42,128 nucleotides of DNA, taken from IMG/VR virus record IMGVR_UViG_3300020572_000017, positions 1-42,128 of that record; one strand, 5' to 3'. This stretch comes from a virus. Positions within the stretch are counted from its first letter, which is position 1. Each line of letters begins with the position of its first letter. Below the pieces are notes generated by a model. That model was not told the origin of the DNA and made no database searches. It worked only from the letters and a program-made list of their open reading frames with translations. A program made the position numbers and the translations under genes. Positions 28,103 to 40,690 of this stretch are shown here, piece by piece.

Positions 28103-30295
28103 ATGATAAAAAACGTAGTAGCAATATATCCAGGAAGATTTCAGCCGTTTGGTAAACATCACGCAGCTGCCTTCAAATGGCTGCAACAACACTTTGGCGG
28201 AGCGAATTGCTACATAGCAACTTCGAATGTCATAGACCTACCTAAATCGCCCTTTTCTTTCAAAGACAAGGCAGACATTATAAGACATTATGGTTTCGAC
28301 GATAGGCTTGTACAGGTAAAGAATCCATATAAAGCGGAGGAGATAATGCGCAATTACAAGCCAGAGGATACTGCAGTAGTATTTATGGTAGGTGCAAAAG
28401 ATATGAAAGAAGATCCTAGGTTTAAAATTGGTAAAAAGAAAGATGGATCTGATTCATATTTTCAAGAATATGAAGCAAATAAAACAAATCTTCAACCTTT
28501 TGATAAACATGGATATTTAGTAGTTGCACCCCACGTTTCAATGAGCGTTCCAGGATACGGAGAAATGTCAGGTACCTCAATGAGAAAAGCTTTAGGTGAT
28601 GTAAAAACTCCTAGATCTCAAAAGATAAATTTATTCAAAGCTGTTTTTGGTTGGTATGACGAAAAGCTAGCTAAAATGATATTTGATAAATTAGAAGCTG
28701 TAAATGAATCTAAATTATCAATTGCAGAAGTAATGAAAAAAAAGAATTTAAAAATAGAAACAACTCAACCAGATCAAACTAAATTATTTAGTAAAGATTG
28801 GTGGAATGAATCGTTAGAATTAACAGAGGCAGTTTCAATTGAAGATATTAAATCTAAATTTAGTAAGTTTGTAAAAGCTATTAAGCAAGAAAGTCAAGAA
28901 ACCAAAGAAGCTTTCAAGCTATTGATATTAGCTGCAACTGGAAAGAAAACTTTAACAGACGCTGAACAAAAACAAATAGGAGATCAATTAAAAGATGTTC
29001 TTAAAACAATTGGATTAACAGCAATTGCAGTTATGCCAGGAGGATTTATTGCTGGTATATTAATTAAAGTACTTAAAGCAGAAAAATACATAACTCCTTC
29101 TTCATTTATGGAAGGATATATGTCTCCAGAACAACAAAAAGCACATGACGAGAAAATGATTAAACTAAAAGACTTTTTAGATACTAATACAGGTAAGCCA
29201 TTTGTATACGATTTCGATGAATTTCCTAAAACCGTTTATGGAGTAAATATTGAAGAGTCTTTGATCATGGAAGGCGGAGCGGGTGGTCATATGGCGCATC
29301 CATTTAATATTCCAACGGTTAAGACAGGAAAAGATTTAGTTACTGTATTTCAAAGATCAATTGATTATTTGAAAAAAGGACCTGCTTCTGTAAAAATTGA
29401 TGGAGTAAATGCTTCTATTCGTTTAATTACGCTAGACAATAAAAAGACTTTTGTAATGGATAGAGGTTCTAATAAACCTTTAGATGTTAAAGGAATTACC
29501 AAAGCAGAATTAACAGATCGTTTTGGTGAAGGTCATGGAATGATTAAAATTGGAGGTACTGTATTAGATATTTTCAATGAAGCATTATCTGAAATTACGC
29601 CAGCTCTTAAAAAATTAGGATTATGGGATAATCCTAACGTAATGTTCAATTTAGAATATGTAGCTGGATCAACTAACGTATTGTCTTATAATAAAAATTT
29701 CCTAGCAGTTCATGGATTGTTAGAAATTGCACAAGTAACTCCAACTAAAAGAGCTACTAAAGAAAAAGCATATAATAAAGCAGCAATGCAAGACTTATTA
29801 AATAATTTAGTACCGTCAGCATCAGAGCGTGGATATGAAGTGCTAGGTTCTATTCCAACTACATTAGATGGAGAACCTGATTTGTCAAAAGAATTAAATA
29901 AATCATATACAGTTAATTTCGGAGATAAAAAAGAAACTAAAACTCTTTCTCAATGGTTAGCAAAAGCAACTATACCAGACGGAGATATTAAAACCGTAGA
30001 TGGTAAAAGAATAGCTGCTTTATCTAAAGATGTTTTAATTAAAATATCAGACGGGGTAGCTTTACCAGAATACATTGCAGATCCTAAAGATTACAAAGCT
30101 GCAGTAGATGGGTTTGTTATTTACATAGCTACTATGAAATTAGGAGATGCTATTTTAGCTAAGCTAAATTCTCCATTAGGCCCCGTATCAGAGCATGAAG
30201 GTATTGTTATTCGTGATACTAAAATTTACAATAAACCATTTAAAATTACTGGTAAATTCATTTTAGGCGGATTAGCGACATCTTTTAAAAAATAA
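28103..30295 (+). CDS. Three-domain fusion: NMNAT-like nucleotidyltransferase, LETM1-like domain, RNA ligase-like domain
   Basis: Residues 1-200 of this 730-aa protein are a cytidylyltransferase/NMNAT-type fold: GRFQPFGKHH at 11-20 (a variant of the usual F-H-x-G-H site) and SGTSMRKAL at 156-164 in the place of the S-x-x-x-I/M-R motif. Residues about 245-345 resemble a LETM1-type helical domain (KLLILAATGKKTLTDAEQKQ, AIAVMPGGFIAGILIK, ending ITPSSF). Residues 391-730 look like a covalent nucleotidyltransferase/ligase. Motif I is KIDG with nucleophile Lys431, followed by MFNLEYVAGS, EGIVIRD (699-705) and FKITGKF (713-719). Joining a NAD- or nucleotide-synthesising enzyme to a polynucleotide ligase could couple cofactor supply or RNA repair. 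Segments LTE-A (240-243) and IME-G (388-391) separate the domains. Substrates are not established. Confidence 0.82.
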   Translation: MIKNVVAIYPGRFQPFGKHHAAAFKWLQQHFGGANCYIATSNVIDLPKSPFSFKDKADIIRHYGFDDRLVQVKNPYKAEEIMRNYKPEDTAVVFMVGAKDMKEDPRFKIGKKKDGSDSYFQEYEANKTNLQPFDKHGYLVVAPHVSMSVPGYGEMSGTSMRKALGDVKTPRSQKINLFKAVFGWYDEKLAKMIFDKLEAVNESKLSIAEVMKKKNLKIETTQPDQTKLFSKDWWNESLELTEAVSIEDIKSKFSKFVKAIKQESQETKEAFKLLILAATGKKTLTDAEQKQIGDQLKDVLKTIGLTAIAVMPGGFIAGILIKVLKAEKYITPSSFMEGYMSPEQQKAHDEKMIKLKDFLDTNTGKPFVYDFDEFPKTVYGVNIEESLIMEGGAGGHMAHPFNIPTVKTGKDLVTVFQRSIDYLKKGPASVKIDGVNASIRLITLDNKKTFVMDRGSNKPLDVKGITKAELTDRFGEGHGMIKIGGTVLDIFNEALSEITPALKKLGLWDNPNVMFNLEYVAGSTNVLSYNKNFLAVHGLLEIAQVTPTKRATKEKAYNKAAMQDLLNNLVPSASERGYEVLGSIPTTLDGEPDLSKELNKSYTVNFGDKKETKTLSQWLAKATIPDGDIKTVDGKRIAALSKDVLIKISDGVALPEYIADPKDYKAAVDGFVIYIATMKLGDAILAKLNSPLGPVSEHEGIVIRDTKIYNKPFKITGKFILGGLATSFKK

Positions 30296-31543: not shown

Positions 31544-32248
31544 ATGGATCCTAAAATTTCAAAAGACTTAAAAAAGGCTACTGAAGAACTTCAGTCTAAG
31601 ATGCTTGTAATGCAACAAGCTGAAGCTGATATGTTAACTCTTAAAACTGCATTTGTAAACGCTACAGATCCAGCTAAAAAAGAAAAACTAAAGCCAGCAT
31701 TAATTGCAATGGCTAAAAAATTAAAAGCAGCAGAAGCAGAAGCTGATCAAGCAGATGCAATGTTTCATAAAGCATTGTCATTAGAACCAGAAGATGTAGT
31801 TGATTTATTAGATCATAAAATTCAAGAGCATATTATTCGTACTACTATTAGAAAGATTGTTAAAGAATCTTTAAATGAAGCAGTAGAAGAGCCAGTTTCA
31901 TTACATGATGAAATTTCAAAGTGGTTTACTTCTAATAAAAAGAAATTGGAAGATTTAGCAGATGAAGATGCATGGGATGAGTTTTACGATTTAGGATTTG
32001 AGAAATTCCCAGATGCAGATCAAGACGATGTAGCTCAAGCAATGAATACTTGTGCTATCGCTGCTGATTGGTTTGAAAATGAAATTGAAGATTTTAGACA
32101 AACTGAAAAGGATTTGGAAATGATGGCATTCGGAGAAAAGAGTCAACAAAAAGGAATTAAAATGGGCGATTATGATAAAAAAATGAAAATGCCTAAAGAA
32201 TCTTCAACCGAATTATATATCGAGTCAAAAAAAAAGATAACAAGGTAA
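31544..32248 (+). CDS. Helical accessory protein, zero-frame product of a probable frameshift gene
   Basis: The 234-aa product is helical and highly charged. Residues 1-85 are Lys/Ala/Glu-rich (LKKATEELQSKMLVMQQAEAD). IRKIVKESLNEAVEE at 103-117 contains an [L]-x-E site of prohead-protease type (L110-N-E112). Residues 118-200 form a second acidic domain (DEISKWFTSNKKKLEDLADE; AMNTCAIAADWFENEIEDF). The frame runs into nine A residues (32227-32235) and stops 10 nt later after KKITR. The conserved start-less frame that follows suggests that part of the ribosomes shift -1 here, giving a 318-aa product. The function is unknown; packaging in the head is suggested by the LNE-A segment and neighbours. 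Confidence 0.7.
   Translation: MDPKISKDLKKATEELQSKMLVMQQAEADMLTLKTAFVNATDPAKKEKLKPALIAMAKKLKAAEAEADQADAMFHKALSLEPEDVVDLLDHKIQEHIIRTTIRKIVKESLNEAVEEPVSLHDEISKWFTSNKKKLEDLADEDAWDEFYDLGFEKFPDADQDDVAQAMNTCAIAADWFENEIEDFRQTEKDLEMMAFGEKSQQKGIKMGDYDKKMKMPKESSTELYIESKKKITR
32230..32236 (+). promoter_or_regulatory. Candidate -1 frameshift slippery site A AAA AAG
   Basis: Zero-frame codons are TCA AAA AAA AAG, so the heptamer A_AAA_AAG is in the correct phase, as in the E. coli dnaX frameshift site. A -1 slip continues with GAT AAC AAG GTA into the conserved downstream frame. I see no clear upstream Shine-Dalgarno stimulator and did not establish a downstream structure. The alternative is one missing A in the homopolymer. 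Confidence 0.5.
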
Positions 32249-32499
32249 TTGAGGAATCTGAATATAAAGGCAGAAAAGTAAAATTAGGCAAACCATTTTA
32301 TACTCCAGGAGGTCCTAGAAAGCGTGCAGTATATGTACGAAATGAAAAAGGAAATGTAGTAAAAGTAGGATTTGGTGAGCCAGGAATGAAAATTAAAAAG
32401 AACAATCCAGCTCGAAGAAAATCTTTTAGAGCAAGACATAATTGTGAAAATCCAGGACCTAGGTGGAAAGCTAGATATTGGTCATGTAGAGCTTGGTAA
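32236..32499 (+). CDS. Conserved basic domain reached by -1 frameshift (no start codon of its own)
   Basis: In the -1 frame relative to the upstream gene there are 87 codons before the TAA at 32497-32499. They encode EYKGRKVKLGKPFYTPGGPR, AVYVRNEKGNVVKVGFG, then MKIKKNNPARRKSFRARHNC and a terminal RYWSCRAW. I recognise this sequence type as a conserved small domain in T4-like and other large phages, so it is very likely real coding sequence. This frame is closed by a TAA at 32194-32196, and between there and the domain it has no ATG, GTG or TTG. The first in-frame ATG is in the middle of the domain. Expression therefore needs a frameshift at 32230-32236, a rare start (ATT at about 32248), or a sequencing error. 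The function is unknown; it is strongly basic, so nucleic-acid contact is plausible. Confidence 0.75.
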   Translation, partial: DNKVIEESEYKGRKVKLGKPFYTPGGPRKRAVYVRNEKGNVVKVGFGEPGMKIKKNNPARRKSFRARHNCENPGPRWKARYWSCRAW

Positions 32500-32512
32500 A
32501 AATAAAATAATA

Positions 32513-33439
32513 ATGAAAACCGAATTAATACAAGAATCTATTAGACTTAGAAAATTAGCAGGTTTAGTAATTAACGAAGATGCTACAGATGATAAAGCAG
32601 CTGAAGAAGTAAAAGATTTAATTACTAAAGTTTCAAACTATGAAGAGTTTGTTGCTAAATTAGGTACATTAGCGTCTGATAAAAAAGTGCAAGCATTTAT
32701 CACTTCAGGCAGAACAGACGGAGACCAAACAGATGATTTATTAAAAGCAGTTTCAAAAGCAATTAAAGTAACTGATTTAAGACCTACTCAAAATGAAATT
32801 GATGTTAATGGGTCATTGAAGTGGCCATTAACAAAAGCAGATTCTCTAGCTAATTGTTTAGGAAATAACACAGTAACTATTAAAGCTCCAATTGTAACTT
32901 ACAATGGAGAATATATTATAGACGGACATCATAGATGGAGTCAGTTATATGCTATGAATTCCAGAGGTGTAATTGATGCTATTGATTTAGTAGGACCTAA
33001 AATAAATCCTGTAGATGTATTAAAGATAGTACAATTAGCTATTGCAGCTGAATTAGGTAAAGTACCAACTCAAAGCGTGCAAGGTCAAAATCTTTTAAAA
33101 GCAGACGCTAAATTTGTTCGTGAGTATGTTATTAAAAATATCACTCCAGAGTGTATTGATGTATTTAAAAGATTTCGTTCTAAAGTTGCAAATGTAAATA
33201 AAGCAGAAGGAATTGCAGATGGTATTGTAGTACCTAATATTAATTCAATGCAAAAAACATCACAGCCAGTAGCCGGAGCACCTAAAAGAGATGTAATGCC
33301 TCAGACTGATGATGCAGTTAATGCAATGAAAAATATTTCCAAAGGAGTTGTTAATTATAATGAGCCGTATATACAAGAAGAATCAGTAAATAAAAAATTA
33401 GATAATATGCTTAAAAAGTCTATTATCAAAATAAAATAA
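32513..33439 (+). CDS. ParB-like domain protein with N-terminal capsid-targeting-like peptide
   Basis: I start this gene at the ATG at 32513 (308 aa), not the in-frame ATG at 32444, because the longer form would overlap the conserved RYWSC-ending frame by 56 nt and adds residues with no family character. The N-terminus MKTELIQESIRLRKLAGLVI, then N-E-D, has an amphipathic helix ending in I20-N-E22, like T4 internal proteins that are cut by the prohead protease. The middle (about 90-150) resembles a ParB/sulfiredoxin-like nucleotide-binding fold: LRPTQNEIDVNGSLKWPL, then IVTYNGEYIIDGHHRWSQL with D137-G-H-H-R141. The rest is helical. A packaged, injected protein with ParB-type NTPase or nuclease activity is an attractive but unproven reading. 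Confidence 0.75.
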   Translation: MKTELIQESIRLRKLAGLVINEDATDDKAAEEVKDLITKVSNYEEFVAKLGTLASDKKVQAFITSGRTDGDQTDDLLKAVSKAIKVTDLRPTQNEIDVNGSLKWPLTKADSLANCLGNNTVTIKAPIVTYNGEYIIDGHHRWSQLYAMNSRGVIDAIDLVGPKINPVDVLKIVQLAIAAELGKVPTQSVQGQNLLKADAKFVREYVIKNITPECIDVFKRFRSKVANVNKAEGIADGIVVPNINSMQKTSQPVAGAPKRDVMPQTDDAVNAMKNISKGVVNYNEPYIQEESVNKKLDNMLKKSIIKIK

Positions 33440-33440
33440 T

Positions 33441-33986
33441 ATGATAAAATTAGTAGATTTATTAAAAGAAGACGAAGCACCAAAGTGCCCCGTAGCTACT
33501 CAAAACGTTGAGGTTAATTTAGAACATCGTCAAATTGCTATTGACAAATATGGATATGGTCCATTGAATCCGAACAATCCAAATATTAAATTTTGGAAAG
33601 ATAAAGCGGCTACTTGGAAATTAGATACCATGGAAGAAGCTAAGGATTCAAGATGTAATTCATGTGCCGCTTTTAATATTACTTCTAGAATTTTAAATTG
33701 TATTGAAGTTGGATTAGCATCTGGAGAAAAGTACGTAGCTCCTGAAGAGAAGCCAGTAGAACAAGGGCCAGAACAACAAATGGAAGCTGCTGAAGTACCT
33801 TCATGGTTACAGCCAGAAGCTCCTGAAGCTGAGGCAGAATTAGATGATACTCAAGGAGCTGAAAAAGACGCTTGGAATACTATAGAAGCTGGAAAATTAG
33901 GATATTGCACAATGCTTAAATTTAAGTGTGCAGGTTCGAGAACATGTAATGCTTGGATTGTAGGCGGTCCTGTAAAAGATAAATAA
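33441..33986 (+). CDS. Cysteine-rich conserved phage protein, possible metal or Fe-S site
   Basis: The 181-aa product has seven cysteines in two groups: Cys16, Cys72, Cys75 and Cys87 (KCPVAT, RCNSCAAF, LNCIEV), and Cys156, Cys163 and Cys169 (GYCTML, KCAGSRTCNAW). Between them is a Pro/Glu-rich low-complexity stretch (100-140). The pattern suggests one metal or iron-sulfur site assembled from both ends. YGYGPLNPNNPNIKFWKDKA is a conserved-looking core that I associate with hypothetical proteins of T4-like phages. The first ten residues, MIKLVDLLKE-D, again end in L-x-E like a capsid-targeting peptide. It follows the ParB-like gene by 1 nt. Confidence 0.78.
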   Translation: MIKLVDLLKEDEAPKCPVATQNVEVNLEHRQIAIDKYGYGPLNPNNPNIKFWKDKAATWKLDTMEEAKDSRCNSCAAFNITSRILNCIEVGLASGEKYVAPEEKPVEQGPEQQMEAAEVPSWLQPEAPEAEAELDDTQGAEKDAWNTIEAGKLGYCTMLKFKCAGSRTCNAWIVGGPVKDK

Positions 33987-40078: not shown

Positions 40079-40690
40079 ATGGAAAATAAGAAATTAATAG
40101 TAGACTATATTACATTTGACATCACTCCGGAGATGATCAATGAGTCTATGGAAAAGAATAACGGTAGATTAATGGTTAAAGGTGTATTGCAAAGAGCAGA
40201 TGCTAAAAACCAAAACGGTAGAGTTTACCCTAAAGATATTTTAATTCGTGAAGCTAAAAAGTATAACGATATTAATATCAAAGAAAGAAGAGCTTTAGGT
40301 GAATTAGATCATCCAGATTCTTCAATCGTAAATTTAAACAACGTATCTCATAATATTACAGAGATGCATTGGGAAGGAAATGATTTATGTGGAACTGTAG
40401 AAGTTTTATCAACTCCATCAGGTAACATCTTAAAAGAGTTATTTAAGTGTGGTATTAAATTAGGTATTTCTTCTAGAGGTTTAGGATCAGTTAAACAATT
40501 AGGAGAGTCTGAAGTTGAAGTTCAATCAGACTTTGAATTAATCGCTTTTGACTTTGTGTCTAATCCATCAACTCATGGAGCCTTTTTAGCACCTATGCAT
40601 GAATCAGTGCAAGCAGACTTAAATAATAAGGCTGCTAAATATGAAAAAGTAAATCATTTAATTACTGACATTTTAACTGACAATAAATAA
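40079..40690 (+). CDS. 21: Prohead core protease (gp21-like)
   Basis: The 203-aa product matches T4-type prohead protease: MVKGVLQRADAKNQNGRVYP near the N-terminus, catalytic His78 in LGELDHPDS and Ser131 or Ser132 in LGISSRGLGS, then FELIAFDFVSNPSTHGAFL. The fold is shared with herpesvirus assemblin-like serine proteases. It cleaves scaffold and capsid proteins after (L/I)-x-E sites and is then lost by autocleavage. Many neighbours have such sites. T4 gp21 is 212 aa. It sits between an internal-protein candidate and a small gene preceding the scaffold candidate, matching T4 order 20-67-68-21-22-23. Confidence 0.95.
   Translation: MENKKLIVDYITFDITPEMINESMEKNNGRLMVKGVLQRADAKNQNGRVYPKDILIREAKKYNDINIKERRALGELDHPDSSIVNLNNVSHNITEMHWEGNDLCGTVEVLSTPSGNILKELFKCGIKLGISSRGLGSVKQLGESEVEVQSDFELIAFDFVSNPSTHGAFLAPMHESVQADLNNKAAKYEKVNHLITDILTDNK

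Follow-up and report, generated by a model that had tools for sequence, protein, structure and literature searches.

How a phage might express a conserved protein domain that lacks a start codon is the question raised by positions 31,544 to 32,499 of a viral stretch of 42,128 nucleotides (IMG/VR record IMGVR_UViG_3300020572_000017; the whole stretch is referred to as the window). The window comes from a contractile-tailed phage and encodes baseplate, terminase and portal. Within it, an ORF of 234 aa ends TCA AAA AAA AAG ATA ACA AGG TAA, and the -1 frame opens at this point into a conserved basic domain (Table 1). A sequence-only reading had proposed that a -1 frameshift of the dnaX type fuses the two. 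Its description of the locus was accurate: the zero frame runs through TCA AAA AAA AAG to a nearby stop, no ATG, GTG or TTG lies between the upstream stop of the -1 frame and the domain, and the product read through a -1 shift, put there at about 318 aa, would be 318 aa long, as would that from one added A. The third frame meets a stop one codon past the run. The conserved part of the zero-frame ORF reads 'WDxFYxLGFxKFPxxDQDDVAQAMN..MGDYDKK'.

Table 1. Features of the junction between the N part and the basic domain in the window.
Feature	Position	Strand	Remarks
Zero-frame ORF	31544..32248	+	Coiled-coil-like helical N part, then conserved part; C-terminus SKKKITR, stop
Nine-A run, TC-A9-G; proposed slippage site	32227..32235	+	G at 32236; from sequence and homologue conservation
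A AAA AAG heptamer, phased to the zero frame; candidate site for a -1 ribosomal shift	32230..32236	+	Phase checked
Zero-frame stop TAA	32246..32248	+	Four codons past the A run
-1 frame ORF, no ATG/GTG/TTG upstream of the domain	32197..32499	+	Preceded by TAA 32194; stop 32497-32499
Conserved basic domain VIEESEYKGRK...RYWSCRAW, phrog_7595	32245..32499	+	E 6.5e-11; predicted fold, pLDDT 82.5

We compared the junction with that of homologues, which come from lake and sea metagenomes. An A run of eight to ten (mode nine) stands at the junction in 37 of 37 distinct homologues, although such counts overstate independence because the homologues share ancestry. Among 30 non-redundant homologues, the run has nine A in 25, ten in four and eight in one. 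Some loci (L158, L178, L199, L206 and L211) first came from a pattern search asking for A runs; in a scan with the N part only, in which no run was required, all 36 untruncated loci had one. It is built in different codon phases, namely TCA AAA AAA AAG, TCT AAA AAA AAA G, TTA AAA AAA AAG and TCA AAA AAA AAC, and it is kept irrespective of the frame of the domain (-1, 0 or +1).

The frame itself is far less stable. Most homologues have the domain in frame. The eight contigs of the window clade agree on the -1 state, one of them (L003) with G-A8-G instead of A9: a TCA to TCG change cuts the run to A8 and leaves the heptamer intact and the state unchanged. Apart from this substitution, no variation in run length occurs among these eight contigs, all of them consensus contigs, and the junction sequence of the window is repeated in contigs from at least six other metagenomes. 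A -1 shift is also needed in the more distant homologues L006, L011, L016, L108, L116 and L124, and the heptamer A_AAA_AAG is correctly placed relative to the zero frame throughout the -1 lineages. The direction of the shift is not conserved, since one lineage (L178 and L211, an identical sequence on two contigs) has ten A and needs +1. Ten A are also carried by L119 and L126, and near relatives can have opposite states, as in L016 (A9, -1) versus L119 (A10, in frame). In a tree of the N part plus domain, well-supported branches require five or more switches between the in-frame and the out-of-frame state, and four sister pairs combine -1 with in-frame; each other replicated clade has one frame state only. 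The comparison bears out the view that the fusion is more than chance, as the -1 ORF encodes a domain with many relatives in viral contigs, run and shift are seen again in homologues whose dS is close to 1 or higher, and the -1 state is shared by the window clade and several more distant lineages. However, the constant feature across the homologues is the A run and not the -1 frame.

Lysine codons elsewhere on these contigs are 83% AAA. In the other ORFs of the same contigs, however, KKK is written AAA AAA AAA in 0 of 42 cases, and runs of at least nine A number one against 19.4 ± 2.8 expected from synonymous shuffling. The window's other ORFs have none against 3.9 expected from the same procedure, in which the start of one of the 38 ORFs was off by a single base (32514, not 32513) with hardly any effect on the sums. 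These phages avoid A9 runs yet keep one at this junction, and codon bias alone was rejected as the cause of the run because A9 is avoided in other genes. Synonymous shuffling retains A9 at the junction in about half of the cases, and part of the A-richness is due to a protein-level need for KKK. A second long A run in the window, an A8 at 28736-28743 (ATG AAA AAA AAG AAT), lies inside the gene 28103-30295, which encodes a cytidyltransferase-like protein of 730 aa and has the same A8 in its homologue on L089; slippage at this place would truncate the protein behind the first domain.

The two frames that do not lead into the domain are closed soon after the run. Both stop at a mean of 2.5 codons past it (maximum 8), compared with 11.1 ± 3.7 for random codons, and none of 2000 random draws, taken from these same, mutually related genes irrespective of local composition, had stops as close. 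We also searched for signals in the RNA. Folding without pseudoknots gave no stable structure 3' of the run (z +0.9), and a 3' stimulatory RNA structure is disfavoured within that scope. A larger fold spans the site (z -2.6). No Shine-Dalgarno-like signal was seen by eye at the dnaX spacing, and no Rfam family was found in the window.

Together, these results suggest that the A9 run is probably a conserved slippage site by which one gene gives two proteins, with RNA polymerase as the most likely agent. Polymerase slippage is preferred because the run is kept in in-frame and +1 lineages and no 3' structure was found. We propose the following model. The polymerase would add or drop A's over the run, giving mRNAs that differ in their downstream frame. 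Those in the frame of the domain would yield a long protein consisting of the N part and the basic domain (318 aa in the window), and the others would reach a stop within a few codons and yield a short protein, the N part with a short tail. Slippage of this kind would work from any genomic frame, so that the domain may drift among -1, 0 and +1 while the run stays. In the window lineage, -1 frameshifting by the ribosome at the A_AAA_AAG heptamer could contribute to the same products. From the sequences we infer that slippage occurs, that both products are used and that it is chiefly the polymerase, not the ribosome, that slips. E. coli RNA polymerase, which may differ from that of the phage host, slips little on eight A (PMC6260861), and for this reason L003 may rely on the ribosome.

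The mechanism of the sequence-only reading, a programmed -1 shift of the ribosome on A_AAA_AAG like that of E. coli dnaX, is one of two that fit; in its pure form, RNA polymerase would have no role. The recoded fusion of that reading is well supported and its heptamer phase is correct, but a ribosomal shift is not the sole candidate because the A run is equally kept where the domain is in frame or at +1 and no 3' structure was found. The heptamer, among the most shift-prone in E. coli (PMC5009743), is correctly phased in all -1 lineages, including L003 with A8, and in L011 and L108 the zero-frame stop follows directly after AAG. The correct phase is, however, the automatic outcome of A9G plus a -1 state, and the A9 of in-frame relatives and the +1 lineage L178/L211 would be left unexplained. 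With neither a downstream structure found nor, by eye, a Shine-Dalgarno-like signal at the dnaX spacing, we regard a purely ribosomal shift as unlikely.

Alternatively, the run could be a hot spot of mutation or a switch for phase variation, whose indels would toggle the domain and whose shifted genomes would make no fusion. Homopolymers are hypermutable, and the frequent flips of state between near relatives such as L016 and L119 are what a switch would produce. But all eight window-clade consensus contigs, and each other replicated clade, show a single state, and close stops in both other frames are not predicted by a switch. The domain is moreover under purifying selection within the -1 clades (L011-L108, dN 0.036, dS 1.04; L002-L003, dN 0.019, dS 0.139), so that in these clades it is not a dead remnant. 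A mere switch thus seems improbable.

Reinitiation at a rare start codon such as ATT might instead yield the domain as a separate protein. An ATT in the domain frame of the window does overlap the zero-frame stop, and some other phages have the domain alone behind its own ATG, as MAEY.... Such relatives, which the sequence-only reading had expected to speak against a frameshift, occur in other gene contexts and do not overturn the fusion. An ATG, GTG or TTG for the domain was absent from the shifted lineages tested, and a start codon of its own was rejected on this ground; the ATT is absent at that place in L011 and L108, and reinitiation would leave the A run unexplained, making it a very remote prospect. 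Finally, a sequencing or assembly error hiding a plain fusion gene, a caveat of the sequence-only reading, is scarcely credible: the domain would be back in frame with ten A instead of nine, the number seen in L119 and L126, but contigs from six or more further metagenomes carry an identical run and frame, L003 arrives at -1 with G-A8-G, and several lineages share -1.

The proposed polymerase slippage has parallels in known systems. In Thermus dnaX, A9 with near stops in both other frames gives products at about 1:1 (PMC5009743, PMC1088944). The window junction resembles that of Thermus thermophilus in its nine-A run, its close stops in both other frames and the two products expected; two products arise in T. 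thermophilus without an RNA stimulator (PMC5009743, PMC1088944), and none was found at the window junction. Thermus dnaX is, however, a cellular gene for DNA polymerase in which the long form is read without a shift, whereas here a phage gene is concerned whose genomic frame varies among relatives and for which slippage is proposed. Slippage on a poly-A run in tssM gives the long form in Citrobacter rodentium and the short form in Yersinia pseudotuberculosis (PMC4256274), so that short and long forms, and an outcome of the slip that depends on the lineage, would be shared with the present family; tssM belongs to type VI secretion, its run in C. rodentium is A11, two species were tested, and the site is absent from most tssM genes. 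E. coli dnaX shares the A_AAA_AAG heptamer in zero-frame phase, but there the shift is stimulated from both the 5' and the 3' side and leads to the short product, whereas no stimulators were found at the window junction and the shift would lead to the long one. Phage Ig-like domains are described, in a passage of PMC5009743 citing Fraser 2006, as attached in frame in some phages and by a -1 or +1 shift in others. They likewise are promiscuous C-terminal domains joined in frame or by a shift; the domain is a different one, and every member of the present family keeps the very run of the proposed slippage, irrespective of frame. Slippage that yields two products from one gene has been described in insertion elements and a small number of bacterial genes, and the literature searched yielded no described case in tailed phages. 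The chemistry is ordinary; the unusual point is that the run is kept through repeated frame changes.

The domain joined at this junction is widespread. It belongs to phrog_7595, a phage family without known function, and has at least 594 confirmed relatives in viral contigs; it occurs in 26 phage records, including those of Pelagibacter, Roseobacter, Flavobacterium and Methylophilales phages. In most relatives, among the matches listed, it is fused in frame to the ends of quite different proteins. A scan of the collection for a startless domain joined by a slippage run in other gene contexts found only the present N family. The predicted structure comprises four strands plus C-terminal helices. 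A search of solved structures with the domain gave no convincing match, and a Pfam search with the window protein gave none; weak matches to DUF5754 appeared in 8 of 34 relatives, and a search of 12 related contigs for DUF5754 itself came up empty.

The N part had no relative among phage records or in the bacterial and archaeal genome collection. It is helical in the model of the homologue L102, whose full-length model is poor (pLDDT 65). An in-frame homologue (L101:3001-4140) has an insert of about 60 aa between run and domain, and in L128:3001-3656 the N part consists of two genes, the second beginning MIKLKDLLKEA. In L130, L158, L199, L206 and L262, an extra stretch of about 75 aa lies between N part and domain, flanked by an A9-10 run at either side. 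Downstream in the window, a GTG-started ORF (32444-33439) overlaps the domain end; its likelier start is the ATG at 32513 (MKTELIQES...).

What the two proteins might do is hinted at by their context. In the present N family the domain is preceded by [LIV]xE-[A/S/G]EY, which we take to resemble a T4-type prohead-protease site, and the window encodes at 40079 a head maturation protease family, phrog_207, presumably similar to T4 gp21. N-part homologues often begin MIKLKDLLKEA. The internal proteins of T4 carry a capsid targeting sequence (PMC3012670). Short genes with T4 capsid-targeting-like, leader-like starts (MIKLVDLLKED, MIKLKDLLKEA) are seen at window 33441-33983 and among the N-part homologues. 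On the leader-like starts, the protease-like site and the head maturation protease family, it is tempting to guess that the proteins of this gene could be head-internal proteins.

We further suggest, tentatively and with somewhat less than even confidence, that the junction is indifferent to frame: selection would hold the run and not the frame, indels would retune the ratio of short to long protein, and in these phages this ratio may set the dose of the basic domain, possibly packaged into the head, that a head protein carries. If true, indels that are fatal to an ordinary gene would here merely shift the short:long ratio. For annotation, the family carries a warning, as one base decides whether annotators see a whole, a truncated or a split gene, and the domain would be lost by pipelines. 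The widespread phrog_7595 domain gains a testable mode of expression, and the gene family offers a natural experiment in how programmed slippage arises and is tuned.
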